DNA of 64,000 nt from Paludibacteraceae bacterium (GTDB lineage Bacteria; Bacteroidota; Bacteroidia; Bacteroidales; Paludibacteraceae), in assembly GCA_024401645.1 (NCBI GenBank), contig JAKSKR010000014.1, positions 1-64,000 of the forward strand. Direction: 5' to 3'. How positions within the stretch are numbered: position 1 is the stretch's first letter; every line of letters starts with the position of its first letter. Both the position numbers and the translations under genes were made by a program. Under the pieces are notes generated by a model. That model searched no databases. It saw only the letters and a list, made by a program, of their open reading frames with translations, and was not told the origin of the DNA. Shown here piece after piece: positions 8,883 to 26,545 of the stretch.

Positions 8883-9920
8883 ATGAAAAAGAGAATCTTA
8901 GTAACTGGCGGTACCGGTTATATCGGTTCGCATACGGTTGTCGAACTCATCAATGCGGGCTACGAAGCCCTCATCATCGATAACTTGTCAAACTCTAACA
9001 TTGGTGTTCTCGACGGCATTAAGAAGATTACTGGTGTAATGCCTATCTACGAAAACATCGATTTGAAAGATTACGCTTCTCTCAACAAGTTCTTCCAGAA
9101 ATATCAGGGCATCGAGGCCATCATCAACTTTGCGGCAAGCAAGGCGGTGGGCGAGTCTGTCAAGTTGCCTCTTCTATACTATCGCAACAACATCACCTCT
9201 GTGCTTAATTTGCTCGAGTTGATGCCAAAGTACGATATCAACAACATTGTGTTCTCTTCTTCTTGCACCGTTTATGGTCAGCCCGACGTGTTGCCTGTAA
9301 CTGAACAGAGCCCAATTAAGCCTGCAACTTCGCCTTACGGTGCTACCAAGCAGATGTGCGAAACCATCATTACCGATGCTGTTCATGCCAACCATGGCAT
9401 GAAGTCAATCCTTTTGCGTTATTTCAACCCAATTGGTGCACATCCGTCTGCCGAAATCGGCGAATTGCCAAACGGCATACCTAACAACCTTTTGCCTTAT
9501 GTTACCCAGACTGCTATGGGCATCCGTGAGAAACTACGCATCTTCGGTGACGACTATAACACACCAGACGGAACTTGCATCCGCGACTACATCAATGTGG
9601 TCGACTTGGCAAAGGCACACGTTATTGCCGTTTCACGCATGCTCGAAAAGAAGAGTCGCAAGCCAATCGAAATCTTCAACCTTGGTACCGGTAACGGTGT
9701 CAGCGTTCTCGAAATCGTTAATGCGTTCAAGAAGGCAACTGGCGTAGATGTTCCTTACGAACTTGCTCCACGTCGTGAAGGCGACATCGAGAAGGTTTGG
9801 GCCGATGCTTCTTTTGCTAACAAGGAACTTGGTTGGAAGGCCGAAGTCTCATTGGAAGACACGCTTGCTTCTTGCTGGAAGTGGGAAATGAAACTGAAGG
9901 AACGTGAACAGAAAGACTAA
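8883..9920 (+). CDS. galE: UDP-glucose 4-epimerase
   Basis: The 345-residue short-chain dehydrogenase-type enzyme interconverts UDP-glucose and UDP-galactose using bound NAD. The Rossmann motif GGTGYIGSHT is at residues 9-18, the SSSCTVYG strand carrying the catalytic Ser at 125-132, and the catalytic YxxxK pair is Tyr152 and Lys156 (PYGATK). FNLGTGNGVSVLE later in the protein is typical of GalE. It starts directly at the stop codon of the nucleotidyltransferase gene. Confidence 0.93.
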   Translation: MKKRILVTGGTGYIGSHTVVELINAGYEALIIDNLSNSNIGVLDGIKKITGVMPIYENIDLKDYASLNKFFQKYQGIEAIINFAASKAVGESVKLPLLYYRNNITSVLNLLELMPKYDINNIVFSSSCTVYGQPDVLPVTEQSPIKPATSPYGATKQMCETIITDAVHANHGMKSILLRYFNPIGAHPSAEIGELPNGIPNNLLPYVTQTAMGIREKLRIFGDDYNTPDGTCIRDYINVVDLAKAHVIAVSRMLEKKSRKPIEIFNLGTGNGVSVLEIVNAFKKATGVDVPYELAPRREGDIEKVWADASFANKELGWKAEVSLEDTLASCWKWEMKLKEREQKD

Positions 9921-9924
9921 TCTT

Positions 9925-9991
9925 AGAAGCTGTTTAAATTTTTTTATTATTCCCAATAAGAATACTTTCGTAAAATTTTTAAACAGCTTCT
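9925..9991. repeat. Inverted repeat after galE; its right arm belongs to a dispersed repeat
   Basis: AGAAGCTGTTTAAA (9925-9938) is perfectly complementary to TTTAAACAGCTTCT (9978-9991), with a 39-base A/T-rich loop. The right half (9957-9992) recurs with about four differences at 51449-51484, read from the minus strand as TAAGAAGCTGTTT followed by an A/T-rich core and ACGAAAG. It may act as a terminator for galE and may be part of a repeated intergenic element. Confidence 0.7.
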
Positions 9992-10006
9992 TACTTACTT
10001 TTGATA

Positions 10007-10042
10007 AAAGCGGCAGAAATAATTGATTATTTCTGCCGCTTT
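10007..10042. terminator. Bidirectional terminator
   Basis: AAAGCGGCAGAAATAA (10007-10022) and TTATTTCTGCCGCTTT (10027-10042) form a 16-bp perfect stem with a four-base loop. A and T runs on the two sides suit termination on either strand. Confidence 0.85.
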
Positions 10043-10136
10043 CTTTATATTTGGTTAAATGAATGTTCCAACTGCCAAAAAATGGATGTTTGCTTTTGGG
10101 CAGATGTAGTTCTTGGCTAAATGTGGAGGATTGGTT

Positions 10137-10952
10137 ATGAGTGAAAATGTCAATGTAAACCAGTATAGGAAAGAAAAGCACGAATGGGCGACTATGATGC
10201 TCTTCCGTTCGTCTTATTCTTCATTCCCGCTTGGTGAGATTGAGAAGTCGGAGTGCCCCGATTTCTTGGTTCACACAAAGAAGGGATTGCTGGGTATTGA
10301 GTTGACCGAACTCAAGTACGACCGTCAGAACGTCTCGTTCAATCCGCGTGGCCACGAAAAGTGGCTGGAATCTATTATGGAGGCTGCCCAGGCCGAGTTT
10401 GAACGTTCGTCAGAACTGAAACTGGTGGTCGACGTCCATTTCCTTAATGAGCTAGGTCCAACCGTGTCGCACCCAAAGGAGGAACCGTCCTTGCTCTTGC
10501 ACGATGGGTTGAAGGAAACCATTTTGAAGATTGTCAACGAGAATACGCCCGAAGCTACCGGTCAGCAATACATCATCGACCGCACCAGCAAGTACGGCTA
10601 CCTCAACTTGCCTTCCATCATAGAAGCTATCTATGTGAAGAACGTGACTGGACGTTATGCCGAGGGACTTTGGTATGCCGGCATTTCAACCATGGTCAAG
10701 CCCCTTTCTGTTGAAAGCGTTGGTCAGCGCATTGCCGATAAGAACTTGAAGATTTCGCACTACAACCAGCAGTGCGAGCGCATGTGGCTCATGATTATTC
10801 AGAACAGCTTCCTCATGTCAAGCCTGTACGATCCGCAGATGGCCTACCGTGCCCTGCACCACCGTTACCTCTCGCTTTTCGACCGTGTCTTTGTCTTCGA
10901 ACGTTCCGAAGGACACGTCACCGAATTGCCGATAATAAGGATACAGAAATAG
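10137..10952 (+). CDS. Uncharacterised protein, possible PD-(D/E)XK-like fold
   Basis: The protein has 271 residues and no family that I recognise. The early segment ECPDFLVHTKKGLLGIELTE has the spacing of a PD-(D/E)XK nuclease core (Pro41-Asp42, then Glu55), but Thr57 stands where the catalytic Lys would be. The C-terminal half is rich in aromatic and basic residues. The start at 10137 is preferred over an upstream TTG at 10113 because GGAGG lies just before the ATG. It is flanked by a strong terminator on the left and a 383-base gap on the right, so it is monocistronic. A nuclease-derived role is only a suggestion. Confidence 0.6.
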   Translation: MSENVNVNQYRKEKHEWATMMLFRSSYSSFPLGEIEKSECPDFLVHTKKGLLGIELTELKYDRQNVSFNPRGHEKWLESIMEAAQAEFERSSELKLVVDVHFLNELGPTVSHPKEEPSLLLHDGLKETILKIVNENTPEATGQQYIIDRTSKYGYLNLPSIIEAIYVKNVTGRYAEGLWYAGISTMVKPLSVESVGQRIADKNLKISHYNQQCERMWLMIIQNSFLMSSLYDPQMAYRALHHRYLSLFDRVFVFERSEGHVTELPIIRIQK

Positions 10953-11335
10953 CACGTTTTTCTGTGCTGAAAAGGTTGTTTTAATCACTTCCTTTTCTTG
11001 CCGATAATGCCAAATTTTTGGCGTCTTTCGTAGGACGGAGGCGACATTTTCAATTGTTATTTCAATGTTTTTTTGCGTAAAACTATAAGTTTAGCCATCA
11101 CTTTTTTTCGAAAAAATTCTATTGTTTGCTAATTTCTTTCTAATTTTATTGGTCAAATTGGGTTAGTTCCTACCTTTTTGCACCTATTCTTGGAGTCTTT
11201 TCGCGAAGATTCTAGGCTGATTGGTGTTGCAAATAGGGTAGTGGCTATATAATATTATTGAATGATTAATTTCTTTCCGTTGGAATCTTACCATTGACGT
11301 TTCAGCGGACAAAGGACTACAAAAAATAAATACTT
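10953..11335. other. Intergenic region upstream of the giant surface-protein gene
   Basis: No open frame of note is present. The region is A/T-rich. A plausible promoter has TTGG at 11149-11152 and TACCTTTT at 11171-11178 with 18 bases between, which would leave a leader of about 150 bases. The leader can fold weakly (CCTATTCTT near 11181 with AAGATTCTAGG). Confidence 0.4.
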
Positions 11336-14300
11336 ATGAAGTATTCTCAATCTAAACTCAAATACTGGATATCCCTATTCCTTATTAGCATTCTCTCGTT
11401 TGCTTCGAATGCTTTTGCGGCTGGTGTGACACATACCATCGAATCTGTTGAAGAATGGAACGATTATGCTACGCAGATGTTGACAAAGTCGGCTATGCGT
11501 TCCGATAACTACGTCCTTATTGCCGACCTCGATTTCACGGGACAACCATTTTTACCATTCGGTGGATTGACAAGGTCTGCCGGACAGTATAGCTTTGCGT
11601 CTAGCGCTGCTTTTTCTGGAACTTTCGATGGACAGAGCCACGTCATTAAGAACATTTCTAATTTCACTCACGGCTCCATGAACAAGCCGCCTCTCGGCAT
11701 CTTTGGTGCATCAAAGGGTACCATCAAGTTCCTTGTGGTCGACAATATGGAGATTCCGCAAGATAAGGCTACTATAATCAATGCCAACTATGTAGGTGGT
11801 ATTTGTGCTTATCAGTCGGGTGGTTCCGTTGAGAACTGTGCTGTCATTAACTCAACCCTCTTTGCGGGTTCGGGTCCGTTGGGTGGTATTACTGGTGGCG
11901 ACAATGGTGGTACTATCAGCAATTGTGCTGTTTATAATACGGTCTTTACCAATCCGGGTACCCTGGGGACAACTGTTGGTGGTATTGTTGGTCAAATTAG
12001 CGCTCCAACAAGTGTACATGACTGTTACGTAAACGCATCATTCAAGAATGTTCAGTCCAATACAGGTGGTATTGTTGGTCAAATCTATTATTCAAATACC
12101 ACTAAAACTATTGTTGAAAGATGTTTTGCCCAAGGCTCTTTCTGCTTCTCTACGGCTGGTGGTTCTAGTAGCGTATCGGCTAATGGTGGTATTGTCGGCT
12201 ATGCGCGTAACTTAAATATGCAGAATTGTGGTTCTACCATCGATATGTCTGTCAATCTTGTATCCTTTACTGGCGATAAGTCATTGCAGAAAACAGCAGG
12301 TGCTATTGGTTTTGCCGACGCTGTTGCTGATATTGAAGGCCTGGAATATTGTTACGCAACAGGAAAGATTGCTTTCTCTGACAAGCGTGGCGATAACAAG
12401 ATGGCGGGTATCAATGCTTTTGTAGGTCAGGTAACAACTGACGACAAGGTTGTTTATAAAGTTCCTGAAAATTGCTATTCAGTAGAAGAAAACTATAAAG
12501 CTCTAGTTAGTGGTGACTATGTGCGTAGCTCTGGCGACAGAATTTATGGTGCGCCTGCAACGCTCAAGCCACAAGCTTTTGTTCAATCGGGCTGTTTGGC
12601 TAAACAGTTGAACGACGACTTTGGTGCTACGAAGGTTGGCGATGTATATTGGGGCTATTCTAAAACTGCGTTCGACGGTTACCCAGTGCCTTTTGCTCAT
12701 GAGGAAAGTGCTGGTGTCCTGGCGCTGTTAAGGGTAAAGGCCGGCTGCATCACTAGCGACGACGTCGATGCCATTACTACCGAATTGCCAGTGTGTGGCG
12801 GTTCTGTTGTTCCTGAACAGACCATTTACCATATTAAGACGGCTGCCGATTTGGCCGACTTCGCCAAATTGATGAATGCTGAAGAACATGATGCCGACTG
12901 GTCGGCTAACAAGACTGTCATCATCGACAACGATATTACAGGTCCTGTTACAACCGTTATTGGTTCTGCCGCCAAACCTTTCAAGGGTACTTTCCAGGGC
13001 GACTCTTACCTCATTAACTTGGCAATTAACAGCACGGCGAACAATGTCGGCTTAATTGGTTTTGCCGATGGCAAGGCTAAAATTACCGATGTCCAGGTAA
13101 AGGGTTCGGTTCGTGGTGCTTCTAATGTGGGCGGTATTGTTGGTAATGCTACTGCAGGTGTCACCATTTCTGGTTGTGCCAACGGTGCGGTTGTTAACGG
13201 TACAACTCATGTTGGTGGTGTGGTTGGTGCTGCAGCATGTCCGGTATCAACTTGCTTGAATGTTGCTAACGTTACTGGTACTTCTAATGTTGGTGGTATT
13301 GCCGGTTCGGGTACTTCGTTGACCGATTGCGCGAACATGGGTTACATAAATGGTGCTGTTACCACAACCGCTGGTGTGGTTGGTTCTGCAACTGGCACAC
13401 TAACGCGATGCCTGAATGCTGGTTACACACAGGGTGCCGGCATTTCTAACGGTGGTACCATTGCCTCTTCTTATTTCGATTTCGCATTGTCACTAAACGG
13501 TCAGCTACAGGCAACTTCGGTTACCATGGCTGCCAATAAGACGCTTACCATTGAAGGTTGGACTGGCGAAAAGGGACAATACCCAGTGCCGTCGGCCTTT
13601 GCTGCTACCCAGCTCGGTAAGTTGGCTGTTGAGCCTATTTACTTTACTAATAACAATAAGGCAAATGCTATTGAAGATAGCATTGCTGCTGGTGCCAACT
13701 GGAAGTCTTCCGACGCAAAGGTTTTGACCTATAATAAGGGTGGATTCCTTCTCTTGAAGACGGGTACTGTTACCTTGTCGGTTGCTAACGACGTAGCTAC
13801 CCGTAATGTGCCGGTTAATGTGCTTAGCGAAAAACGTTTCTCTGGTGGCTATGGTCACTTCTTGGCACCTTACCAGATTTCTAAATTAGCCGACCTTACC
13901 GAATTGAAGACCTTTGTTTCTAATACCCATGGTGCAAAGGGCTACATGTTCGAGTTGACCAACGATATTACCGATGGTACTTGCCAAGCATATATTGGTT
14001 CTTCTGTCGATCATTTTAAGGGACATTTCTTCAGTACCGCAGGCCATGTGTTTAATATCGATATCGATATTGCGGCAAAGACCGATATTCCGGTTGGTTT
14101 GTTCGGCGTTGTCGATGGTATTGTCGAAAACGTTTCGGTTACCGGTAGTGTTGAAATTGCAGGAACTGGTAAGATGGCCTATGCCGGTGGTATTGCCGGT
14201 TATTGCGAAGGTCGCATTGCTGGTTGTGTTAACAATGCCGATGTTACTGGCATTAAGGGCAGCAAGGCTACCCTTGGCGGTATTTGCGGTGGTGTTAGTG

Positions 14301-17300
14301 GTTCTATTGTCAATTGTACGAATATTGGCCGTGTAAGTGGCAATGCCTATGCTGCCGGTATTACCAATGTCGACGATGTTTCTACGGCATACGTTGCGCA
14401 GTGTTTCAATGGTGGGGTAGTCACTTCTGCCAATGCCGCTGGTGTTGCAAACGTGCTTTCTTCTTTGCCTTCGGTTAAACCTACTTTTGTAGATAATATT
14501 AACGTGGCTGCCGTTAACGGTAGTGTTAGTGCCGATGCGCTTGTTTACAGCAACGGTGCTGCGCCTGTTGTTACTGGTGGACTATACGATAATCAGCATG
14601 CTGTTGCCAAGACCATGAATGCTACGGCAAAGGCCGATTCTTCAAAGGCTTTGACTCTTGAAAAGGTAACAGGTTTCACAACTGCGGCTGGTGTTTATCC
14701 TACCAATGGTGCTTCTTCAATCAACACATTGGCTTCTCTCCCTGTTTTCGCTCATGTTAAGGATTCTGCCAACAACATCAAGCACGACTTTAGCGTTGCT
14801 TCTGCTGCTGGTGTGGTTTGGACATCAACCACCGGTAACGTTAAGGTAGATGGCAATAAGGTTGAACGTGTAAAGGCTGGTGCCGATACGTTGGTTGCTA
14901 CCCTTGGTAACTATAACCGTCGTGTTCCGGTTGTTGTTGCTTGTGTTTGGGATACGGTTAACGATCCTGACCTCGAAGTCTGCAACATGTATGCAGGCAA
15001 GACTTATACTAAAGACACAACCCTCGTTGTAAAGGAGATTTCAGATAATACTAATCCGAATGCCGATTGTGGTACCTTGCACATCAAGAAGGTCATCATT
15101 ACTGTTGGCGAAATGGGTCGTCCAATCGATACTGTTGGTTGTGGATCGTTGGTTTACGAAGGCTTTACCCATAAGAAGGATACTGTATTTACAAACAAGA
15201 ATTGCGACATTGTAAATGTCAAGATTTATCCGTTACCTTCAAAGGCCGATTCTGTAGTTACGCTCGACTGCAATACCGAATCTTATACCTACAACGCATC
15301 TAACGGAAAGGCTTATAAGGTTGAGCGCACTGCTAAACCTATTAAGGACTCGTTGATTGTTACTGACATTATTAAGAGCAAGACTTGCGGTTGTGATTCG
15401 CTTATCCGCCGTGTCTATGTCAACATTCCTACAGTCAAGACCGACGTGGTGTTAGATGAGGTTTACTGTAACACTTACGACTACACAACCTTCTCGGGCA
15501 AGGTGGTTACTTTGGGTTGGCCTATTGCTAACCGTGACCCTGAAGAGAACTATTGGCAAGCCAAGGTGCAAGACGTAACCTACATCGATACCAACTTCGT
15601 ATCGGGCAAGGAATTCAGCGAAATTCGCGTCGTTAAGCTTAAGATATTTAAGTCTCTTTACCTCACCGATACTATTCAGCACGTAGGTGTCGATTGTACG
15701 CCTATTACCATTCCTTTGTCCGATGGACGTGAAGTTACCTACTCTGGCATTAAGGATACCGTCTTCTACGATCAGCTTATGTCTGAAGTTTATGAGGGTT
15801 GCCCACAGAGCGTAACCAAGATTAAGCTCCGTTTGAAGGGCTTGTCAGAGGTGAAGGATACGGTTTACATCGGAAACTTTGGTGCCCCTCGTTGCACCGA
15901 TTGCGACGATGTTATTGTCTTGGAAAATGTTCAAGACGGCTCGTTGGCTAACTTCGGTTTCTGCGACAAGGTTAAGTACAAGCAGTATGCTTCCGATTCT
16001 CGTGTAATGACACGTACTGCTAGTGCAAAGAATGCTATTAACGTAGATTTTGGTGATGAGGACATTTGTGGTTACGTAGTTCCTTTCAAATTCCGCATCA
16101 ATTCTTCCGAAATTGAGGAATCTGCAATCAGCGTTTGCGATTCTATGGCATTTGAAACGAGAGATGGTCGTAAGTTCATTGTTAAAAACGACACCATCAT
16201 TTCCGATACGGTTGTGGGCGCTGTTCCTGGTTGCGGTTGCGACAGCATATACAAGACCAAGATTACCGTGTTCATGCCTACACGTGTTTCTTTCGATACC
16301 GTGGCTTGCAATTTTGCCATCTTCAGCTATCTCGACAAGGCTAAAGCTAGCCTCACCATCAAGAACGATACGGTGATTGTCGATACGCTTAAGAAGGTCA
16401 ACATGGCTTGCGACAGCATCATCCGCACTTCTTCTTACACTATCCATAAGGCATACCCTGAAGAGGTGAACCAGTTGAAGGAATTTGCATCATGCAACGA
16501 GTTTGTTTATGAGTCTCCGCTTAATGGTAGAGTCGTTTGCAAGCGCGACACGTTGTTCAACGATAGTTTGAAGACCATATACGGTTGCGACAGTATTGTG
16601 CCTGTTAAGGTCACCATCAACAAGCCAGTGGTCATCGACTCTGTTATGCACATCTGTTCTACCTATGTTTACCATTACAGAAAGGGTGGAACCATAACAT
16701 TGCCGTTGGGCGACAATCCGGCTCTCGTCGACACCTTTACAATTTTCGATTCGTTTAAGAATGTCGATCCAACCAAGTGCGACACAACCTTCCGCATGTT
16801 GGTGTACTCACATACTACACGCGTTCGTCAGTCGCCAGTTACACCAGTTTGTAGCTTTATGGAATATGAGCGTTTCAATGGCGAACGTTTCGAGATTACC
16901 GAGTCTGTTACCGTTTACGATACGTTGAAGAGCCAGATGTGCGATTGTGACTCAATCGTCCGCATCGACAGCTTCTCGGTTGGTCAGCCTTATTACCCAA
17001 CTGCTGACACCAAGCTCGACACCACACTCTTCGGTTGTCGAACCAATACGGTTTTGACTTACGAAAGAAGAACCAATGCATGGAACCCTGCGCGTTCAAT
17101 TTCTTTCGTTCCTGTAAGTTCCGAGTTCCCTAACCAACCAGGATTCTTGAACATTGTTAAGTCTAGCAACCCATCGGTGGTTGCACTCGATACCGTTGTC
17201 GAAAAGATTTATGGTTCAAATGTACGTCGTTTCTACTGGTTGGCACACGACACCATGAAGACCATTGCCGGTTGCGATAGTGTGGTTCCGTTCCGTGTTG

Positions 17301-19276
17301 AATACGATGGTCAGCATACTCTTGGTAGAAAGTATTTCTATGTTAACCACAAGCAAGCGCCATTCGTTTACCAGGGTATAACATACAATATGCCAAGCTT
17401 TGCTAACGGCGTTGCTACTTACGACTCTGTCGAGGTTGTTCTCCCTTCACGTACTGGTGGTTGCGACACCACTTACTACGCAATGGTTAAGATGTATCCT
17501 TGCAAGGTGGTCGACACTACCGTTCACTATTGCGACGAGGCTATGTTCCGTAACTTGCACCGCGAGTGGATGACCTTTACGAACGATACGGTTTATTCCG
17601 ACACCATTCGTTACGTCATTAAGAACGACACCGCAAGTTGCGATAGTATGATTCAGACTTGGCACATTAAGATTGGTCATAAGACCCCTGCAAACCAAAT
17701 CTCTGACGTTTATGTGGGTGGTTGCGACAATGTCGTCTTCCACCGCGAAGGTGCTGCATTCAACATGCAGGCTACCGATACTGTCTTCTACGAATCGGGC
17801 ATCTTCCGTTGCCGTTACATCAACGCTTCGGGTTGCGACAGTGTGGTGCCTGTTCGCATAAGTGTACATAAGGTTGAAGAGAATACAGTGGTTATTCGTC
17901 GTACCGACTACTTCATTTACAAGAGTCCGCTCGACGGATCTCGTACACGTGTAACGCGCGACACCGTTATTGAAGAACGAGTGCCAAATATGGTTACCGT
18001 CAACATGTCTAACGGTACTTCTTATACTTGCGATAGCGTCATCACCACACAGATTACTATTCGTCCTGCCGAGTGGCGCGACACAACCATTACCGGTTGC
18101 GACTCTGTATTGGCTGTTGCTCCGGCCGACTCAATCCGTGGCGATATTGAAACCATGGCTCAACAGTGGTACAAGCGCGACACTACTTTCGACTTGCCTA
18201 ACTCGCAGACGTTCGATCCATACTACCATGTTCACATCAAGTTGAACAAGTCAGTTTATGGTAAGATTGTAGTTGACAGCTGCCGTCAGGTAACCTATAA
18301 GGGTAGCGTTTATACAACCAATACCAGCTTTATTGAACGTTCAACTACCGTTGCTGGCTGCGACAGCGTAGACACCGTCTACATTGTTGTTCACCCAGTC
18401 ATCGAGAAAATGAACACAGCTACGGGTTGCGGATACTTAATCTACGATTCGAAGGTTTACTCGCAAGACACTACGTTGTACGATACCGTTCGCTACACCA
18501 ATGGCTGTAATTGCGACAGCATCGTCACTGCTATCGATGTGGTTATTTACGAGCCAACAGTCGTAGAAAGGGCTGTCGACAGTTGTATGTTCTTCACTTA
18601 TCCGAAGATGGTGGCAAAGGAATACAACTGGTTCATACGCGACTCGGTTTACGAACCAATTGCTCTCGATTCTGTCTACACCAACTCTGTCTCATTCTAC
18701 CGTTATGCCGAAGAAGACAGAAATGGCTGTAACACCATTGAACACCTAACATTGAACGTTAATCCTTGTTACCCTTATCCGGTCATCATTAACAAGTATA
18801 ACTGGATTTTGGCTCTTAATAAGGACCTTTTGACAAAGGATGTGAATGCTAGCCACATTACCGGCTACCAGTGGTACAAGAATGGCGAACTCCTTCTTGG
18901 CGCTAACCAGTCTTACTATACCGAAGACCGTCCGTTGGAAGGTTGTTACCAGGTTCAGGTAAAGTTCGGCAGCATGTCTGTCGAATCTGAAAACGTCTGC
19001 ATCGATCCTTCAATGGATGTGGCTTTGTCTTACGACTTGTATCCTGCCCCTGTTTCAGTTGGTGGCATGGTTTCTATTAAGTGTAACTTCGACATGGAAG
19101 ATACCGATGTTGAAATCTACAACACCTTGGGCGTTAAGGTTTACCATAGCACTTTGACTTCTGTTAAGGATACTCCTGTACAGATTCCATTCCGTTTGGC
19201 TGCTGCTGGTAACTACTTCTTGAAGTTGACTACCGAAGATGGTACCGTTCTTGGTAAGAAGTTTATTGTTAAGTAA
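11336..19276 (+). CDS. Giant T9SS-secreted surface protein with GLUG-type and Cys-Asp-Ser repeats
   Basis: The 2646-residue protein is probably a cell-surface adhesin. A signal peptide occupies residues 1-28 (hydrophobic core SLFLISILSFASNAFA). Residues ~30-1080 contain many GLUG-like units (FSGTFDGQSH, GGIVGQ, GGIAGYC) typical of beta-helical adhesin stalks, in two blocks separated by a linker. From about 1220 to 2480 there are about 14 copies of a module centred on CDS[IV] (for example NGCDSVV, GCDSIVPV), spaced roughly 60-110 residues and often preceded by DT-rich strands. The C-terminal ~85 residues form a T9SS type A sorting domain ending in GNYFLKLTTEDGTVLGKKF. The cysteines suggest disulfides outside the cell. 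Two barrel-protein genes follow in the same direction without a terminator. Confidence 0.85.
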   Translation: MKYSQSKLKYWISLFLISILSFASNAFAAGVTHTIESVEEWNDYATQMLTKSAMRSDNYVLIADLDFTGQPFLPFGGLTRSAGQYSFASSAAFSGTFDGQSHVIKNISNFTHGSMNKPPLGIFGASKGTIKFLVVDNMEIPQDKATIINANYVGGICAYQSGGSVENCAVINSTLFAGSGPLGGITGGDNGGTISNCAVYNTVFTNPGTLGTTVGGIVGQISAPTSVHDCYVNASFKNVQSNTGGIVGQIYYSNTTKTIVERCFAQGSFCFSTAGGSSSVSANGGIVGYARNLNMQNCGSTIDMSVNLVSFTGDKSLQKTAGAIGFADAVADIEGLEYCYATGKIAFSDKRGDNKMAGINAFVGQVTTDDKVVYKVPENCYSVEENYKALVSGDYVRSSGDRIYGAPATLKPQAFVQSGCLAKQLNDDFGATKVGDVYWGYSKTAFDGYPVPFAHEESAGVLALLRVKAGCITSDDVDAITTELPVCGGSVVPEQTIYHIKTAADLADFAKLMNAEEHDADWSANKTVIIDNDITGPVTTVIGSAAKPFKGTFQGDSYLINLAINSTANNVGLIGFADGKAKITDVQVKGSVRGASNVGGIVGNATAGVTISGCANGAVVNGTTHVGGVVGAAACPVSTCLNVANVTGTSNVGGIAGSGTSLTDCANMGYINGAVTTTAGVVGSATGTLTRCLNAGYTQGAGISNGGTIASSYFDFALSLNGQLQATSVTMAANKTLTIEGWTGEKGQYPVPSAFAATQLGKLAVEPIYFTNNNKANAIEDSIAAGANWKSSDAKVLTYNKGGFLLLKTGTVTLSVANDVATRNVPVNVLSEKRFSGGYGHFLAPYQISKLADLTELKTFVSNTHGAKGYMFELTNDITDGTCQAYIGSSVDHFKGHFFSTAGHVFNIDIDIAAKTDIPVGLFGVVDGIVENVSVTGSVEIAGTGKMAYAGGIAGYCEGRIAGCVNNADVTGIKGSKATLGGICGGVSGSIVNCTNIGRVSGNAYAAGITNVDDVSTAYVAQCFNGGVVTSANAAGVANVLSSLPSVKPTFVDNINVAAVNGSVSADALVYSNGAAPVVTGGLYDNQHAVAKTMNATAKADSSKALTLEKVTGFTTAAGVYPTNGASSINTLASLPVFAHVKDSANNIKHDFSVASAAGVVWTSTTGNVKVDGNKVERVKAGADTLVATLGNYNRRVPVVVACVWDTVNDPDLEVCNMYAGKTYTKDTTLVVKEISDNTNPNADCGTLHIKKVIITVGEMGRPIDTVGCGSLVYEGFTHKKDTVFTNKNCDIVNVKIYPLPSKADSVVTLDCNTESYTYNASNGKAYKVERTAKPIKDSLIVTDIIKSKTCGCDSLIRRVYVNIPTVKTDVVLDEVYCNTYDYTTFSGKVVTLGWPIANRDPEENYWQAKVQDVTYIDTNFVSGKEFSEIRVVKLKIFKSLYLTDTIQHVGVDCTPITIPLSDGREVTYSGIKDTVFYDQLMSEVYEGCPQSVTKIKLRLKGLSEVKDTVYIGNFGAPRCTDCDDVIVLENVQDGSLANFGFCDKVKYKQYASDSRVMTRTASAKNAINVDFGDEDICGYVVPFKFRINSSEIEESAISVCDSMAFETRDGRKFIVKNDTIISDTVVGAVPGCGCDSIYKTKITVFMPTRVSFDTVACNFAIFSYLDKAKASLTIKNDTVIVDTLKKVNMACDSIIRTSSYTIHKAYPEEVNQLKEFASCNEFVYESPLNGRVVCKRDTLFNDSLKTIYGCDSIVPVKVTINKPVVIDSVMHICSTYVYHYRKGGTITLPLGDNPALVDTFTIFDSFKNVDPTKCDTTFRMLVYSHTTRVRQSPVTPVCSFMEYERFNGERFEITESVTVYDTLKSQMCDCDSIVRIDSFSVGQPYYPTADTKLDTTLFGCRTNTVLTYERRTNAWNPARSISFVPVSSEFPNQPGFLNIVKSSNPSVVALDTVVEKIYGSNVRRFYWLAHDTMKTIAGCDSVVPFRVEYDGQHTLGRKYFYVNHKQAPFVYQGITYNMPSFANGVATYDSVEVVLPSRTGGCDTTYYAMVKMYPCKVVDTTVHYCDEAMFRNLHREWMTFTNDTVYSDTIRYVIKNDTASCDSMIQTWHIKIGHKTPANQISDVYVGGCDNVVFHREGAAFNMQATDTVFYESGIFRCRYINASGCDSVVPVRISVHKVEENTVVIRRTDYFIYKSPLDGSRTRVTRDTVIEERVPNMVTVNMSNGTSYTCDSVITTQITIRPAEWRDTTITGCDSVLAVAPADSIRGDIETMAQQWYKRDTTFDLPNSQTFDPYYHVHIKLNKSVYGKIVVDSCRQVTYKGSVYTTNTSFIERSTTVAGCDSVDTVYIVVHPVIEKMNTATGCGYLIYDSKVYSQDTTLYDTVRYTNGCNCDSIVTAIDVVIYEPTVVERAVDSCMFFTYPKMVAKEYNWFIRDSVYEPIALDSVYTNSVSFYRYAEEDRNGCNTIEHLTLNVNPCYPYPVIINKYNWILALNKDLLTKDVNASHITGYQWYKNGELLLGANQSYYTEDRPLEGCYQVQVKFGSMSVESENVCIDPSMDVALSYDLYPAPVSVGGMVSIKCNFDMEDTDVEIYNTLGVKVYHSTLTSVKDTPVQIPFRLAAAGNYFLKLTTEDGTVLGKKFIVK

Positions 19277-19302
19277 GTTTTAATTTGTTGTTAGTTCATT
19301 AT

Positions 19303-20379
19303 ATGCTGAAGGGCATCCGACATATTGGTTTGGGTAAATGTTACCGACACGTGCTAGCAGTTCTTGCTTGCATGTTGTTGTCGCACATTTCTATGCCGGT
19401 GTCTTATGCTCAAAGTGCAGCTGCTGCCCTAAAAATGAACCCAAAGGCCTACACGGGTAAGAGTGCTTGGTGGTACAACTACCAGTACTTCCCCGAACTG
19501 ACCATCTTTGGGCAGAGCGATGATACTATCCCCGACGTTAAGCACCGTTACTCGTTCTACATCAATGGTGGCTATGCTGGCTTCGAGTTTAGTCACACCC
19601 CAGCTAGCGCACAGAAAAGTTTAGGTCTGGGTTTCGGTGGACGTTACAATTACTTTGTTTCGCCTAATTGGGGTTTCCGTACGGGTTTAGGCTTAGATTA
19701 TGCGAAAACCACTGCAAAGATGGGTGAATTTGTCGACGACTTCTTGAAGACTGATCAGGAGTCCGATCAGGTTCACTATCATTACAGTTTCTCTTCTGTC
19801 GAAGAAGATTACGACATCTACATGTTGAGTGTACCTTTGCAATTGGTTTACCAGTACAAGAGGTTGATGGGTGGTTTTGGTATTAAACCCGCCTTCCCAA
19901 TTTCGGTAGCTTACTCGCAGACGATTACAGACATCAATACCAAGGCATACTTCCCACAATACGATGTGTGGGTCGACGATTCTTGGGTAATGGCTTGTGG
20001 CGACTATCCTTATGTGCCAACTTCAAACAAGTATATGGCATCGCCAATCGTCATTCTGGCAACTGCCGACTTGGAGTACATGATTCCTGTTAATCGCAAG
20101 TTCTCAATTGGTGTAAGTGCTTTCATCGACTATTCTATCAACTCGTCATTCAGTTTCCGAAAGAGTCAGCTTTCTAGTGTCAATACCGACCAGAATAGCA
20201 TGGTGGGTACAACAAACGAGGTTCCAATCTCACTTGTCAACAATAGCTTGTTGTCAGGAAAGAAGAATTACGAGAGTGAGTCGGTTGTGCAGCACATTCA
20301 CTACATGAATGCTGGGCTTCGTGTGTCGCTGAATGTTAATTCTTATGGCCCTCCAAAACCACGTACTAAACCTTATTAA
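19303..20379 (+). CDS. Outer-membrane beta-barrel protein
   Basis: The protein has 358 residues from the ATG at 19303; an upstream in-frame TTG at 19285 is less likely. It has a signal peptide with a long basic n-region, and VLAVLACMLLSHIS forms its core before cleavage near SYAQS. The rest alternates aromatic and glycine residues in strands (LGLGFGGRYNYFVSPNWGFRTG) as in porin/OmpA-like barrels. The gene starts 26 bases after the giant surface-protein gene and lacks a terminator between, so it is probably co-transcribed and may help export or anchor that protein. No specific family is assigned. Confidence 0.7.
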   Translation: MLKGIRHIGLGKCYRHVLAVLACMLLSHISMPVSYAQSAAAALKMNPKAYTGKSAWWYNYQYFPELTIFGQSDDTIPDVKHRYSFYINGGYAGFEFSHTPASAQKSLGLGFGGRYNYFVSPNWGFRTGLGLDYAKTTAKMGEFVDDFLKTDQESDQVHYHYSFSSVEEDYDIYMLSVPLQLVYQYKRLMGGFGIKPAFPISVAYSQTITDINTKAYFPQYDVWVDDSWVMACGDYPYVPTSNKYMASPIVILATADLEYMIPVNRKFSIGVSAFIDYSINSSFSFRKSQLSSVNTDQNSMVGTTNEVPISLVNNSLLSGKKNYESESVVQHIHYMNAGLRVSLNVNSYGPPKPRTKPY

Positions 20380-20416
20380 GAAGGTGGTGGGTTAAAATTC
20401 GTCTATAGTTAAAATT

Positions 20417-21682
20417 ATGAAGAAATTCCTATTTTCTTTAATACTTCTCTCAACTGTTGTCAGTTCGGTCTATGCCCAGAAAAACATGGTACACCGTGTT
20501 AAGTTCGAGGGCATGTTTGGCACCGAAGCACATTCTACCGATGCCAAGTACATGGTTGGTGGCGAAATGGCTTACGAGATGCCAATGTTCGGTAAGAAGA
20601 ATTGGCATTATACCTACAACTTCCCAACAGTAGGTTTTGCTTTGGGTTATATGAATTTGGCAGGTACCGATTCCATTTCGCATATTGCCTATACTTATCC
20701 CTATTTCTTGTGGCCGTTTGTTCACACGCCAATGGTTGCCATTAACTTGCGTGGGGCGCATGGCGTAGGTGCTTATGTCGACTTTGCCAATACCGACACG
20801 CATAAGCGTTATTTCCCTTATGTAGGTGTCTACTCGCTAGGGCTTACTGGCGACTTCTTCCTTGGTAAGATGTATGGCAATCCATGGTCGCAATGGCAAA
20901 TTACGTTGGGTGGTAACCTTACCTTGTTGCACGACGGATTCATTAGTCGCAACACTATGATTATGCTGTTGCCTTATGCCAACTTGGGTGTGAAGTACAC
21001 GCCAAACGTTTATCCGTTGCCAATTAAGCATCCGGCACGTCCGGTTCGCCACATTTGGGGCATTGAGGGTAGTTTGAACGGTGGCGTTAACCAGTTAAGT
21101 GTTTCCGACGACGACAATTATTATCCAACAGGTTCATTGAACGTTGGTCTTTACTATCCGTTCTCTAATGCTTTCCGCATGGGCTTTGGTATCGATGGAT
21201 TCTTTAATAGCATTTACGATGGTAAGCAGAGGGATGATTTCCACCGCTACAACTTCATAGACGAGGATAAGCTTATCAATAAGATTCGTGGTGGTATCTT
21301 CTGGGCTAACGAAGTTACCGTCGAACGTTTCAGCGCAGGTATTCACATCGGTTTCTACCCTTGGAACCCGATAAAGGTGCCAGATTCTGATGACGATGGT
21401 TGTGAGTTTAAGAGCAACTTGGAAAAGATACTTTACGAGAAGTTTGTAACCAAGTACAAGTTCACCAAGCACTTCTATGCTACTACCCAGCTAAAGACGC
21501 ACTTGACTGCCGTTGAAAATTTTGAGGTAGGTATTGGTTACTATATGGCCGACTTCGGTGCTCGTGTTAAGAGTCCATTCTCGCGCATCTCATTTAAGAA
21601 GGAAGATCCTAACGAACTCAAGGTCGAGGGTGAAACTTACAGTAAGAAGCCATTCCGCCATAACGAGTTGTTCGATGAATAA
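20417..21682 (+). CDS. Outer-membrane barrel protein, acyloxyacyl hydrolase/PagL-like
   Basis: The 421-residue protein has a clear signal peptide (MKKFLFSLILLSTVVSSVYAQ). Amphipathic strands follow, with motifs resembling Bacteroidota acyloxyacyl hydrolase-like lipid A deacylases (YNFPTVGFALGYMN; ITLGGNLTLLHDGF; LKTHLTAVENFEVGIGY). If correct it would trim acyl chains of lipid A in the outer membrane. It is the third gene of the giant-protein operon and is closed by a terminator at 21690-21727. The resemblance is moderate; a generic OmpA-like barrel is the alternative. Confidence 0.55.
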   Translation: MKKFLFSLILLSTVVSSVYAQKNMVHRVKFEGMFGTEAHSTDAKYMVGGEMAYEMPMFGKKNWHYTYNFPTVGFALGYMNLAGTDSISHIAYTYPYFLWPFVHTPMVAINLRGAHGVGAYVDFANTDTHKRYFPYVGVYSLGLTGDFFLGKMYGNPWSQWQITLGGNLTLLHDGFISRNTMIMLLPYANLGVKYTPNVYPLPIKHPARPVRHIWGIEGSLNGGVNQLSVSDDDNYYPTGSLNVGLYYPFSNAFRMGFGIDGFFNSIYDGKQRDDFHRYNFIDEDKLINKIRGGIFWANEVTVERFSAGIHIGFYPWNPIKVPDSDDDGCEFKSNLEKILYEKFVTKYKFTKHFYATTQLKTHLTAVENFEVGIGYYMADFGARVKSPFSRISFKKEDPNELKVEGETYSKKPFRHNELFDE

Positions 21683-21689
21683 AATTAAG

Positions 21690-21727
21690 AAAGGTGAATC
21701 ATAGTTCAATTATGGTTCACCTTTCTT
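21690..21727 (+). terminator. Rho-independent terminator of the surface-protein operon
   Basis: AAAGGTGAATCATA (21690-21703) pairs with TATGGTTCACCTTT (21711-21724), followed by T-rich sequence. It starts 8 bases after the stop of the barrel gene. Confidence 0.85.
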
Positions 21728-21753
21728 ATGTTTGTGGCATATTTGAGAATCCA

Positions 21754-22506
21754 ATGAAACAGATTTTTAATCTCATTTTTTTTCTCTGTGTGTTGTCTTT
21801 CGTTTCGTGTCAAGACGAGCGCTCAAAGACATCTCCTTTAGAGTTGATGGTTAACGACTATGTTGAAAAACAATTCCCTAATTGGTCCGATTCTATCAGG
21901 TCTAAAGAAGATACATTGTGCCTTCATGTTTATTTCTCACATTATGTCGACAATTTTTCTACTCATATAACCGATAGTACTGCGGTTTTAGATGTTGTTG
22001 CATCTGTGGGGGGAACAGTTAACCGAATGGTGTATCCCGAGTACATCTTGGTGCCTCCTCTTCCAGCTCTTTTACCCGGAGAAACAATTTCTGATGCGCA
22101 TATCGAACAGTTTGTGCAAGCAATAAAGAGAGCAGAACTTGAAATATATGGGAAAGAGACTGTTGCGCCTGATTTCAGTGACAATCAAAAGAAATTAAAG
22201 TACTATGACGATAGGTGGGTAGATTTACATCATGTAGTAGATAGCCTCAATTTACTTGATCCTGCTTTAATTGGATACACCTATTTTGGACCCGTACAAG
22301 TTATTATTTTGGCCAAACGTGACGTAGACCAAAATTTGTTATCTCCATTTCTTAAAGGAGTAAATGTGATGGATCTTCGGCCTAGGTACATCTGGCATAA
22401 AAAGAATGAAAAAGAGCAAGATTGTTCGGGTTGGGGCGCATTCAATGTCTATAGTATTGAGTCCGCCGGACATTTCCATCAGATTGGCCATTGTCTAATT
22501 GAATGA
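21754..22506 (+). CDS. Putative lipoprotein of unknown function
   Basis: With the start at 21754 the protein has 250 residues and a lipoprotein signal peptide (hydrophobic core LIFFLCVLSFVSC, then QDERS). The frame runs upstream to 21694, but that part is the terminator hairpin, so the internal ATG is chosen. The mature part is mixed alpha/beta, with residues such as DLHHVVDSLNLLDPALIGY, and shows no known motif. It follows a terminator, so it needs its own promoter. It is less codon-biased and more A/T-rich than the operon before it. Confidence 0.65.
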   Translation: MKQIFNLIFFLCVLSFVSCQDERSKTSPLELMVNDYVEKQFPNWSDSIRSKEDTLCLHVYFSHYVDNFSTHITDSTAVLDVVASVGGTVNRMVYPEYILVPPLPALLPGETISDAHIEQFVQAIKRAELEIYGKETVAPDFSDNQKKLKYYDDRWVDLHHVVDSLNLLDPALIGYTYFGPVQVIILAKRDVDQNLLSPFLKGVNVMDLRPRYIWHKKNEKEQDCSGWGAFNVYSIESAGHFHQIGHCLIE

Positions 22507-22540
22507 AAAACATTCTTCATGTGTTATTCTAGTTTTTAGG

Positions 22541-22605
22541 ACCTGTAATCCCCGTTATGTTAAATCCAAAACGAGTTGTCCCTTTCTGCATAGGCAAAAG
22601 CAAGT
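22541..22605 (-). repeat. Remnant sharing a motif with 36795-36826
   Basis: Read from the minus strand, TGGATTTAACATAACGGGG and ATTACAGG match TGGATTTAAAATAACAGAA and ATTACAGG at 36795-36826 (about 24 of 29 positions). Both sit in intergenic sequence downstream of minus-strand genes. It may be a dispersed intergenic repeat or the decayed 3' end of a gene family. Confidence 0.35.
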
Positions 22606-22636
22606 CTCCCACTCTGCACTCGGTTTGAAATGGTTT

Positions 22637-23317
22637 TTATCTCAAAACCGCACGAACGCTCTGACCGAGGCTGCGGTAGTCGCTGTACCAGTCGACGTCG
22701 CCAGCGATGAAGCCGAGGTAGCCCGCGTTGTCCGGGTAGTCCTCGAGGAGCGAAGACGACCAGTAGTAGCCGCTGAGGCCGACGATGCTGAGGTCCGAAT
22801 CGTTACGGTAGCCGGCGGCGGGCAGGAAGATAGTGGCACCGTTAGACTTAGAGGTGCCCAAGCGGCCGTTCACGCCACTGCCGCTGAAGTCCTCAACCCA
22901 CTCCCAAGAGCAACCGTCAAGCAACTCTTCTATTTCTTCCCTTGTCGGCATCCTCCACGCACTGCCCCAGTTCGCGGTCGCAGCGTCGTCCTCCGCTTCC
23001 AGCACCGTCTTGTTGTCTACGGTGCCATACTTGCTTTTGTTGCAGTATTTGGTCATGCTGTCATCACTGCCCTTGCACCACTTGTAAGTGCTCCAGCTGT
23101 ACACCTCCTTCGGCTTGGTCTCGCCCCAGGCGAAATAGTCGCCGTATTCGCTCGGCTTGGTGGCACCTACGTTGCAGGTCGCCCACTTGGTGCCGCTTGG
23201 CAGGCCAAGGTCAACATAGTCGTGACCTTCCACTTGTCCACTAACGGTCTGTGCGGAACATTCCATTCCTGCAACCATCATCACCAACGCCATCGGTGTG
23301 TAGATAACCTTCTTCAT
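22637..23317 (-). CDS. Fib_succ_major (DUF1566-like) secreted protein, GC-rich
   Basis: The 226-residue protein has a signal peptide (MKKVIYTPMALVMMVAGMECSAQ) and one Fib_succ_major domain. Its hallmarks are DLGLPSGTKWATCNVGA, DYFAWGETKPK, WRMPTREEIEELL, LPAAGYR and a C-terminal GQSVRAVLR. This domain is thought to adopt a C-type-lectin-like fold and is common on gut Bacteroidota and Fibrobacter surfaces. The ATG at 23317 is preferred over an upstream one at 23350. The third codon positions are mostly G or C, unlike every neighbour, which suggests recent acquisition. The last ~35 codons before the tail are almost all NNC. Ligand binding is inferred. Confidence 0.8.
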   Translation of the reverse strand: MKKVIYTPMALVMMVAGMECSAQTVSGQVEGHDYVDLGLPSGTKWATCNVGATKPSEYGDYFAWGETKPKEVYSWSTYKWCKGSDDSMTKYCNKSKYGTVDNKTVLEAEDDAATANWGSAWRMPTREEIEELLDGCSWEWVEDFSGSGVNGRLGTSKSNGATIFLPAAGYRNDSDLSIVGLSGYYWSSSLLEDYPDNAGYLGFIAGDVDWYSDYRSLGQSVRAVLR

Positions 23318-23353
23318 ACACAAGTTATAAATGAGTTCCAGTTGCGACATTAT

Positions 23354-24244
23354 TTATGCTATAATGCAAAAGATGATGTAGATAAGACTTATAATCGCCC
23401 CAATTATGGCCAATGCCATATTCAACACGAGATTCTTTTTATTGTCGAACACCATTTTCTCGTACATTTCCAGCTGTTTCTTATCTAGCGATTTTATTTG
23501 TGGAAGGTTGTAGAAGTTCTTTTCCAATATGCATTTATAGGTCTGGTAAATGGTCAACATGATAACAAGTGGCATGATTGTACTAGGACCTGTCATCATT
23601 CTATTGTCTTGTGATATAAAGTAGAATGTTGCAATAACGCATAATGCAGTGCCTATTGCTAATGTTGGGAAAAACTTGCTATCTTCCTTTTCGCTTAATG
23701 TAAGGAAAAGTTCTAATAATCTACCAGCCTTTTCATTTTCTTCTTTTTCTTCTTCGTATGTTAAGCCCTTACCTATAGCCTGTCTTTTCATCTCCTCGTC
23801 TTTACGAAGATAGGCAATGTGTCCAATGTTTTTGTCAGTGCATTCCTTGACTATTTTCCGCAGTTTTGCCGAATCGATGTTTAATTCATCAACATTGTAT
23901 GATGCTTCTTCTGTGCCCTTAATGGTTAGGTATTCGCTGCTTCTCTTGCCGCTTTTCACCTTTTCAAGATAAGCGTATTGAATGTCTTTCCAAAAATGCA
24001 TCTTGTTATCTGCAGAAATGAAAATTCCCGAATCGTCTATCTTTATGTAATCGCTAGATAGTGCTTCCCATAAAAAGAGTACTCCAAAAAATCCTCCAAT
24101 TAAGATGATGAATGCCATTTTGGGGTATGTATCTGCATTTTTAAATAGAATGAACGAGCCTGCTAATACCACGCTTGCACCTATGAAATATAACAGCCTG
24201 GTTAGAGGCTTCATGCTGATTATGTGTTCGTTGTAAACTCCCAT
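23354..24244 (-). CDS. Membrane protein with PH-like cytosolic segment
   Basis: The 296-residue protein has two N-terminal membrane segments (LLYFIGASVVLAGSFILF; MAFIILIGGFFGVLFLW). A polar region of about 70-140 residues follows, shaped like a bacterial PH domain (YIKIDDSGIFISADNKMHFW and following strands), then two or three C-terminal membrane segments (FPTLAIGTALCVIATFYFI; ALAIIGAIISLIYIIFCIIA). No function is known to me. It lies 36 bases upstream of the Fib_succ_major gene on the same strand but differs sharply in base composition, so a common origin is unlikely. Confidence 0.65.
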   Translation of the reverse strand: MGVYNEHIISMKPLTRLLYFIGASVVLAGSFILFKNADTYPKMAFIILIGGFFGVLFLWEALSSDYIKIDDSGIFISADNKMHFWKDIQYAYLEKVKSGKRSSEYLTIKGTEEASYNVDELNIDSAKLRKIVKECTDKNIGHIAYLRKDEEMKRQAIGKGLTYEEEKEENEKAGRLLELFLTLSEKEDSKFFPTLAIGTALCVIATFYFISQDNRMMTGPSTIMPLVIMLTIYQTYKCILEKNFYNLPQIKSLDKKQLEMYEKMVFDNKKNLVLNMALAIIGAIISLIYIIFCIIA

Positions 24245-24427: not shown

Positions 24428-24456
24428 TTGTGCCTCGTTTATAATGATTATGTTTG
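24428..24456 (+). promoter_or_regulatory. Promoter of the CotH operon
   Basis: TTG (24428-24430) and TATGTTTG (24449-24456) are 18 bases apart. The ATG at 24468 follows closely. This makes the upstream in-frame ATG at 24444 an unlikely start, because it lies inside the promoter. Confidence 0.6.
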
Positions 24457-24467
24457 AAGAAAATACC

Positions 24468-24971
24468 ATGAAAGAAAAGCGACTAATGGCGTTATGTTTC
24501 GGACTAATGTTTTTCATTCCTGTGGCGTTCTCCGTTACGGGTACAAAGACTTTGTTGCTGAAACTTAACAATGCGGATGCCATATCCGTCAATTTGGCCG
24601 ATGTGCCCCAGTACTGGGTGCAAGGCGATTATCTGTACCTTAAAACTACTACCGAAGTGCAGAAATTCAACGTGGGTTCGGTTCAGGAAATCGTCTTTGC
24701 TGAAACCGCCTATTCTTCGTCTGTAAAGATGGAAAACGAGGCTGTCGTGGTTTTCCCCTCCTTGGCTACCGACCATGTTTATGTGAAAGGTGAAGTGGCT
24801 GTTAACGATGTGACTGTTTATGCTGCCGATGGTAGGCCCATGCCTTTGGTTGCCGAAAGCCAGGCCGATGGCATAATGGTAAATGTTTCTGCGTTTCCCC
24901 AAGGTATTTATCAAATCTTGCTAGGTAGGCAATCTTACAAGTTCATTAAGGGCATAACAGAAAAGAAATGA
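24468..24971 (+). CDS. Small secreted protein with T9SS-type sorting domain
   Basis: The protein has 167 residues from the ATG at 24468, which lies just after the promoter. A signal peptide (LMALCFGLMFFIPVAFSVTG) leads into a short beta-rich region of about 60 residues. A C-terminal ~75-residue module follows, with the pattern of a T9SS type A sorting domain (VFPSLATDHVYV, VYAADGR, FPQGIYQILLG). So little cargo precedes the sorting signal that the protein may be an accessory or marker subunit. Its stop overlaps the ATG of the first CotH-like gene, which places it first in a three-gene operon. Confidence 0.7.
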   Translation: MKEKRLMALCFGLMFFIPVAFSVTGTKTLLLKLNNADAISVNLADVPQYWVQGDYLYLKTTTEVQKFNVGSVQEIVFAETAYSSSVKMENEAVVVFPSLATDHVYVKGEVAVNDVTVYAADGRPMPLVAESQADGIMVNVSAFPQGIYQILLGRQSYKFIKGITEKK

Positions 24972-26545
24972 CTATGAATAAGAGATATTGTAACCTTCTG
25001 TGCGCATTGGGTATGGCTACATGCCTTAATGCCCAAGTAACGGTAGAGCTTGACCATAAAACAGTTACGCTACCCATTGAAGATGTTGACCTTTTGCAGT
25101 CTGACACGTTAGTGCAGTTGCTAAACATCTCGGTTCCTTCTTCACGGATTATATCTACGTCGAAAGCCATTGAGGTCGATAAGCTAGACTTGAAAAATGA
25201 GAAACAGAATGCTTTCAACGTGCTGAACGATATGACCTTAAAGAAGAGTGATAATGACGGTTTGCAAGCCGATGTTTCTATTGCTTTAGACAACCAGTCT
25301 TCGGCAACTCTCGTCTTACCTTTTTTAAGTAGTGTGGCGTCTTTAGTGCCAACGTTTAGCACCACGGGCGCTTACATCTTCGTCAACGACAAATTGTGGC
25401 ACGATGGCGATAAGGTCAATTTTACTGAACCTGTAAAGGTGAAGGTCGTGTCTTTTAACGGCGATGTGCGCACCTACCAAATTAGTGTGACTAAAACAGA
25501 CTTCCCTCTCGTTGAAATCAAATCTGCGGACAGATCCATTGGCAAAGACTGGGCGGAAGGCACCCTAACCATTGATGGGGTGGTTACCGATGGAATGAGT
25601 GTAAAGGGAAAGGGTAGTCATTACTATTTTGGACTTAAAAACAATTATGCCCTAAAGTTTGGCGACAAGAAGAGTCTGCTGAACATGACGAAGAACAAGC
25701 GCTGGCTGTTGTTTGCCAACGAGAGCGATAACACGTTGTTGCGTGCCGACATTGGTTATTGGTTGGCTGGGCAACTTGCCGACGGTAGTTGGACGCCTGC
25801 CGCTAAACCGGTCAACTTGTCGGTCAATGGCTCTTTCCAGGGCTGTTACACGTTAGTTGAGCAACCACGCATTTGCAAAGGCCGTTTCGAAGATGGCGTT
25901 CTTCTTTCTGTTGAGCAAGAAGCCGACTATGGCGATGATGTGTTCCGTTCCAAAATCAGTAACACGCTCTTCGTCTTCGAAGATCCTGAAACAGGGGCAA
26001 AGGGCACCATGCTAGTCAAGACCAAAGACAAGATCGACAAGTTTGAGAAAGCGTTGGCTGCCGAGAATTGGACAGAGGTTGAAAAACTGGCCGATTTGAA
26101 GTCGTTTGCCAACTGGTTGGTGATTAACGAGATTGCTGCAAATGCCGATGCTTTTGTTTCCGACACTTACATTCACGTTAGTGCCGATGGTAAAATAGCC
26201 CTTTTACCGGCTTGGAACTTGAAGAAAGCCTTTGGCTGCGAAAACGATGCCTACAACGTGTTTGTTGCCGAACAAACACCATGGATTGGTCAACTGCTGA
26301 AAAGCAAGAACTTTGTGGCTCTGGTTAAGGAACAATATGGCAAGGTGAACCAAAAGGCCCTCGAAACCTACATTGAACAGCAAGCTAAAGGCTTGAAGCT
26401 TGCGGCTATTGCTAACAATGCCGTTTGGAAAAACCTGGTTGCAGAGTCTTATGGAAAACGTGCTGCCAATGCCTACGATAATGAAACTGAACGATTGAAG
26501 AAATGGGTGAGCAACCGTTTGATGTGGCTCGACTCTCAATGGTAA
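24968..26545 (+). CDS. CotH-like secreted protein with degenerate active site
   Basis: The 525-residue protein (ATG at 24968 overlapping the previous stop; 24974 is possible) has a signal peptide ending in CLNAQ. An Ig-like module (~70-165) carries the VVSFNGDVRTYQISV signature. A CotH-type domain (~170-520) is recognisable by LLNMTKNKRWLLFANESDN and VNGSFQGCYTLVEQPR. CotH proteins are atypical kinases. The two motif regions seen intact in the next gene are altered here: KGKGSHYYF replaces the RGNSTW loop and PAWNLKKAFG replaces WDFDLAFG. It is probably a non-catalytic member that partners the intact domain. It has no clear T9SS tail. Confidence 0.8.
   Translation: MTMNKRYCNLLCALGMATCLNAQVTVELDHKTVTLPIEDVDLLQSDTLVQLLNISVPSSRIISTSKAIEVDKLDLKNEKQNAFNVLNDMTLKKSDNDGLQADVSIALDNQSSATLVLPFLSSVASLVPTFSTTGAYIFVNDKLWHDGDKVNFTEPVKVKVVSFNGDVRTYQISVTKTDFPLVEIKSADRSIGKDWAEGTLTIDGVVTDGMSVKGKGSHYYFGLKNNYALKFGDKKSLLNMTKNKRWLLFANESDNTLLRADIGYWLAGQLADGSWTPAAKPVNLSVNGSFQGCYTLVEQPRICKGRFEDGVLLSVEQEADYGDDVFRSKISNTLFVFEDPETGAKGTMLVKTKDKIDKFEKALAAENWTEVEKLADLKSFANWLVINEIAANADAFVSDTYIHVSADGKIALLPAWNLKKAFGCENDAYNVFVAEQTPWIGQLLKSKNFVALVKEQYGKVNQKALETYIEQQAKGLKLAAIANNAVWKNLVAESYGKRAANAYDNETERLKKWVSNRLMWLDSQW

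Follow-up and report, generated by a model that had tools for sequence, protein, structure and literature searches.

To understand how a very large type IX secretion system (T9SS) cargo might be held at the cell surface, and whether the outer-membrane barrel genes behind it take part, we analyzed a gene cluster in a Paludibacteraceae bacterium. The window is the 64,000-nucleotide stretch of contig JAKSKR010000014.1 (assembly GCA_024401645.1; 2.7 Mb, 71% complete). An ORF listing places three genes where the initial annotation had put them, all on the plus strand: a giant T9SS cargo gene (11336-19276; 2,646 aa), the gene for barrel 1 (19303-20379), and the gene for barrel 2, a 421-aa signal-peptide protein with a barrel-like pattern (20417-21682). 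The barrel 1 ORF is open from a TTG at 19285, with the ATG at 19303 as the conserved start; measured to this ATG, the gap behind the giant is about 26 bp, and that between the two barrel genes is about 37 bp.

A pattern scan detected no terminator-like site in either gap, and an intrinsic terminator with a 20-bp stem closes the cluster on the plus strand (21686-21728), both as previously annotated. A second terminator, with a 16-bp stem, lies upstream of the cluster (10007-10042). These two stems stand out in a scan that was at chance level overall (15 sites found versus 14.7 expected), its remaining matches having at most 9 pairs. A search of the two gaps and of the region immediately before the giant found no Bacteroidota-type promoter consensus, so the putative operon transcription is read from gap size and the terminators. 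No RNA family was detected within 9000-24000. The 279-aa protein encoded at 10113-10952 has no Pfam or NCBIfam family; it is kept directly upstream of the giant in the genus loci and lies near the giant in a locus of another genus (L072).

The giant carries a signal peptide, GLUG-type repeats (approximately aa 215 to 981), Cys-Asp-Ser/Thr modules (approximately aa 1305 to 2420), a penultimate Ig-like domain with the motif YQWYKNG (18779-19015, plus strand; boundaries approximate), and a type A T9SS C-terminal sorting domain (CTD) (19037-19273, plus strand), which we assign below to a putative barrel-paired subclass. The tail matches TIGR04183/PF18962 at aa 2568-2646 with an E value of 1.3e-7, above both curated cut-offs (31.5 bits versus 23 and 30.5 bits versus 27), upholding the T9SS tail noted initially. 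The type B CTD model TIGR04131 was not among the families listed for cargo tails. CD[S/T] motifs occur 15 times, whereas shuffling the residues gives 0.8 on average, in agreement with the roughly 14 Cys-Asp-Ser modules annotated before. The GLUG-type repeats hold up in part: eight GG[IV][AV]G motifs fall between aa 215 and 981, but the Pfam Glug model (PF07581) reaches 13.7 bits, under its gathering score of 20.5. “GLUG-type” is thus a fair label that stops short of formal GLUG membership. The same architecture is present in genus relatives and in a second giant of 2,627 aa in the same genome (contig C8, locus L013). Other giants differ in their surroundings. Two built of GLUG-type repeats have no barrel behind them (L015:6122-15493 and L014:2-4996), and a 3,047-aa giant of the same genome (C56; L016:273-9416) consists mostly of Cys-Asp-Ser modules and ends in a paired-type sorting domain with no adjoining barrel, while its relative in genome G005 (L027) has a barrel directly behind.

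The giant and barrel 1 remain together well beyond this locus. The C8 giant is followed after 26 bp by a barrel 1 paralogue, with no barrel 2. Barrel 1 occurs in 6/6 genus genomes, in each case in the order giant, barrel 1, barrel 2 (the G005 contig begins inside the giant), and barrel 1 relatives occur in 191 of 300 Paludibacteraceae genomes. Down to about 22% identity, these relatives lie −73 to about +230 bp from the preceding gene. The directly upstream gene was read for about 80 of them. Among close relatives (profile score of ≥250, upstream gene visible), all 40 upstream proteins were read as ending in a CTD-like tail. The curated model assigns a TIGR04183 tail to 61 of 82 upstream genes and to 0 of 42 downstream genes, counts that are not independent trials because the loci are phylogenetically related; the base rate is 63 TIGR04183 matches in the 2.7-Mb genome, a few per cent of its genes. 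Conversely, none of the 48 unpaired type A cargos examined was seen with a barrel 1 behind it (one set was assessed by reading and the other by profile).

The same cargo-barrel order was found in 9/9 loci of a genus belonging to another family of the class, and it is not present in the one locus from a further family. Exceptions fall mainly among the most distant homologues (score below about 92), several of which follow an unrelated gene that is not a CTD cargo; of those checked, at least one looks like an ordinary barrel-OmpA protein. L125 is a closer exception. Named relatives recovered via barrel 1 belong to the Bacteroidales of horse feces and other gut sources, and they include “Candidatus Physcocola equi” (Paludibacteraceae; GTDB genus UBA4345) as well as “Candidatus Scybalocola fimicaballi” (PMC8957277). 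The open-access papers that we searched do not describe this pairing. The initial annotation had proposed that both barrels are dedicated outer-membrane partners of the giant. For barrel 1 this is well supported, given its adjacency in 6/6 genus genomes, in the C8 pair, across the family, and in another family.

Barrel 2 behaves differently, and here the proposal is not supported. It is encoded in 153 of 200 family genomes, usually in one copy; such wide occurrence without the giant gene is what the initial annotation had said would count against its proposal. Outside the genus it is located apart from barrel 1, with unrelated and often opposite-strand neighbors, and none of the 14 loci read has such a T9SS cargo beside it. 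The three-gene order is conserved within the genus (6/6) and not beyond it. The suggestion that barrel 2 is a PagL-like lipid A deacylase is likewise unsupported: PF09411 matched none of five barrel 2 proteins at E values up to 1, and the locus is absent from the genome-wide matches. There was no Pfam or NCBIfam match for barrel 2, and a structure model built from six close sequences reached a mean pLDDT of only 34, too low for placing the His-Ser-Glu residues of a PagL-like active site. Judged by its genomic distribution, barrel 2 appears to be a genus-level hitchhiker that stands outside the cargo-barrel pair and is probably cotranscribed with it in this genus only.

What kind of protein is barrel 1? 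Its sequence matches the OmpA/OprF N-terminal barrel families PF13505 and PF13568 weakly, and, one chance match aside, neither barrel has sequence relatives in the PDB. In an AlphaFold model (mean pLDDT of 76.7, about 90 in the barrel part), eight strands span the membrane, with three long hairpins on the extracellular side and short turns on the periplasmic side. VIA-align superposes this model on the OprF barrel with a Z score of 17.2 (1.9 Å over 128 residues) and on OmpA with a Z score of 16.5 (2.5 Å over 130 residues). Barrel 1 is therefore predicted to be an eight-stranded outer-membrane barrel of the OmpA/OprF type. It differs from OmpA and OprF in its long, partly conserved loops L2 and L3 (conservation of 0.37 and 0.38, versus 0.44 for the strands; L4 does not come near this level) and in its near-constant linkage to T9SS cargos. 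A separate pattern scan of aligned barrel sequences used ten closer ones, as an alignment of all 22 was too divergent.

Membership of the PorP/SprF family was rejected for barrel 1: TIGR03519 has no match at C6:19303-20379 and nine matches elsewhere in the same genome. A 14-stranded FadL-type shuttle such as PorV or PorP/SprF is likewise at odds with the eight strands of the predicted model, and Foldseek returned FadL-type structures only at TM scores near 0.2. A profile search found no C-terminal OmpA peptidoglycan-binding domain in the barrel 1 of the window. Among 10 longer or distant relatives, 6 have this domain (PF00691) fused to the barrel, and 5 of these 6 lie behind CTD cargos. Three relatives of 511 to 540 aa (L123, L124, and L147) carry an extra region N-terminal to the barrel that has no Pfam match and opens in two of them with a GGDGS-ENPY motif.

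The proteins encoded next to barrel 1 relatives suggest which part of the cargo the pairing follows. As complete ORFs, barrel-adjacent cargos range from 583 to 2,843 aa and have differing N-terminal repeats and a common C-terminal part. Of the 82 upstream proteins next to a barrel, 57 contain the Ig-like YQWYKNG motif; among unpaired type A cargos it was found in 3 of 48. A tree that combined 71 paired with 49 unpaired sorting domains shows 4 label changes, versus 38 in shuffles, although the alignment has few columns and many forks are unresolved. An earlier tree held only high-scoring unpaired domains; the separation persisted when 19 lower-scoring ones from the same genome were added. One unpaired domain, that of the C56 giant, groups with the paired ones, and its G005 relative has a barrel. 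Paired domains have insertions at two places and have lost the leucine of motif D. The barrel-paired domains split off almost completely from the other type A domains, and pairing appears to track the cargo tail rather than the variable N-terminal repeats. Groups A, B, and C, named by barrel similarity, are recovered both in the barrel tree and in the cargo-tail tree, which is the independent one; these matching splits indicate that the pair was duplicated and inherited as a unit, with no visible exchange of partners.

Proteins with TIGR04183 tails are in general exported by the T9SS translocon. Within the genus, PorV is present and PorU was found in four of six genomes; the MAG containing the window (71% complete) encodes a PorV-family paralogue, with no PorU found. 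In three genomes (G002, C1:37269-45454; G003, C43; and G070, C13), a tandem pair of PorU-type sortase genes is followed by PorV. In described systems, type A tails route cargo through the T9SS with PorV, followed by cleavage by PorU, while type B cargos have adjacent PorP/SprF barrels, which also hold the cargo (PMC10202324, PMC12618676, PMC9143113) and are needed for its secretion (PMC12618676). Both PorV and PorP/SprF carriers are 14-stranded FadL-type barrels (PMC9143113).

We favor, as somewhat the better bet, the interpretation that barrel 1 is a dedicated anchor that retains the exported giant on the surface through its C-terminal module. In this view, the type A sorting domain would take the giant out through the T9SS translocon. 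Cleavage by PorU and joining to LPS, or release, would then not be its sole fate: a C-terminal module made up of the Ig-like domain and the distinct sorting-domain subclass may instead dock on the eight-stranded barrel, at its long and partly conserved loops outside the cell, and the barrel would thereby keep the cargo at the cell surface. In some lineages, an OmpA domain on the barrel could tie the complex to peptidoglycan. We computed the conserved pairing, the sorting-domain subclass, the matched trees, the predicted eight-strand barrel, and the OmpA fusions in relatives; we infer physical contact, anchoring as opposed to a different shared role, and what becomes of the sorting domain.

Precedents for cargo-barrel complexes include SprB-SprF and PG1035-PorP-PorE (PMC9143113, PMC12618676) as well as PorZ-PorQ (PMC10202324). 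In Flavobacterium johnsoniae SprB-SprF and other pairs of a type B CTD with PorP/SprF, a giant T9SS adhesin gene is likewise followed by its own barrel gene, cargo specificity lies in the sorting domain, and the barrel has been proposed as cargo holder (PMC9143113, PMC12618676). Like SprF and PorP partners, barrel 1 is encoded directly behind its cargo gene in a conserved position; unlike them, the cargo in the window is type A (TIGR04183) rather than type B, and the barrel is predicted to be eight-stranded and OmpA-type rather than PorP/SprF (TIGR03519). In Porphyromonas gingivalis PorZ-PorQ, a type A sorting domain escapes cleavage and stays attached to a barrel of its own (PMC10202324), although PorQ is a PorV-like barrel in the attachment machinery, whereas the partner here is a small OmpA-type barrel associated with large repeat proteins. 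The PorE-PorP-PG1035 complex brings a cargo and a barrel together with an OmpA-type element that binds peptidoglycan (PMC9143113); in barrel 1 relatives the OmpA domain is instead fused to the barrel itself, and the barrel in the window has none.

Several points speak against an anchor: most type A cargos do without such a partner, several distant homologues are not behind a CTD cargo, the loci counted are phylogenetically related, and an eight-stranded barrel, as modeled, would be narrower than PorV or PorP and unable to work as the known carriers do. Alternatively, barrel 1 may be a carrier or assembly factor for exit of the cargo from the T9SS translocon, as in the secretion role of SprF, with surface holding secondary. 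That adjacent PorP/SprF proteins are required for type B secretion (PMC12618676) and that the paired sorting domains constitute a subclass of their own would fit such a role, but the known carriers are 14-stranded FadL-type barrels (PMC9143113), barrel 1 is predicted to have eight strands, and the genus has PorV, the carrier for type A domains; we consider this role unlikely, if the strongest of the alternatives. In principle, gene adjacency alone would fit anchoring or another joint function equally well. Barrel and cargo might act jointly at the surface without binding directly, for instance if the barrel is itself an adhesin or stabilizes a membrane that bears a bulky coat, with shared regulation alone keeping the two together. 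Eight-stranded barrels of the OmpA, Ail, and NspA kind, some of them adhesins, are indeed among the fold matches, but the link to a sorting-domain subclass, and not to the variable N-terminal repeats, suggests that the tail is what the pairs have in common and makes this reading slightly less probable still.

It is much less probable that the three genes form one unit, with both barrels serving the giant and the last one modifying lipid A. Despite the shared order in 6/6 genus genomes, the short gaps, and the common terminator, barrel 2 is usually single copy, is found in 153/200 family genomes, and is located elsewhere outside the genus; it has no PagL match, and the paralogous giant pair on C8 lacks it, so that for barrel 2 the idea is already largely refuted. 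Finally, operon order may persist by drift among close relatives, and the neighborhood of the giant and barrel 1 could reflect chance or hitchhiking with no functional link. We regard this as very improbable: the pairing persists across genera and two families at 22 to 35% identity, has been duplicated as a pair, and is contradicted as chance by the upstream versus downstream tail counts (61/82 versus 0/42) and by 4 versus 38 label changes in the tree.

In current reviews, type A cargos use one universal carrier, PorV, and are then cleaved, and dedicated adjacent barrels belong to type B only. It is about an even call whether Bacteroidota possess, in addition, a T9SS route for large repeat proteins of a distinct type A subclass, each with its own eight-stranded OmpA-type anchor encoded directly downstream that keeps it at the surface and connects it to peptidoglycan in some lineages. 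If so, such a subclass, with a partner of a different barrel fold and a spread over several genera of a gut family and another family, would bring in a cargo-specific means of retention, and surface-anchored T9SS proteins would be predictable from the tail plus the neighboring gene. The sequence signature and the pairing yield direct predictions testable in cultivable relatives.

Two further features of the window were recorded. At 24444-26545, a small protein with a weak sorting-domain match is followed by a CotH-kinase protein. At 34616-34703, a 24-bp tandem repeat encodes GLEKGEAI, and another part of the genome has the same in a transposase-like ORF.
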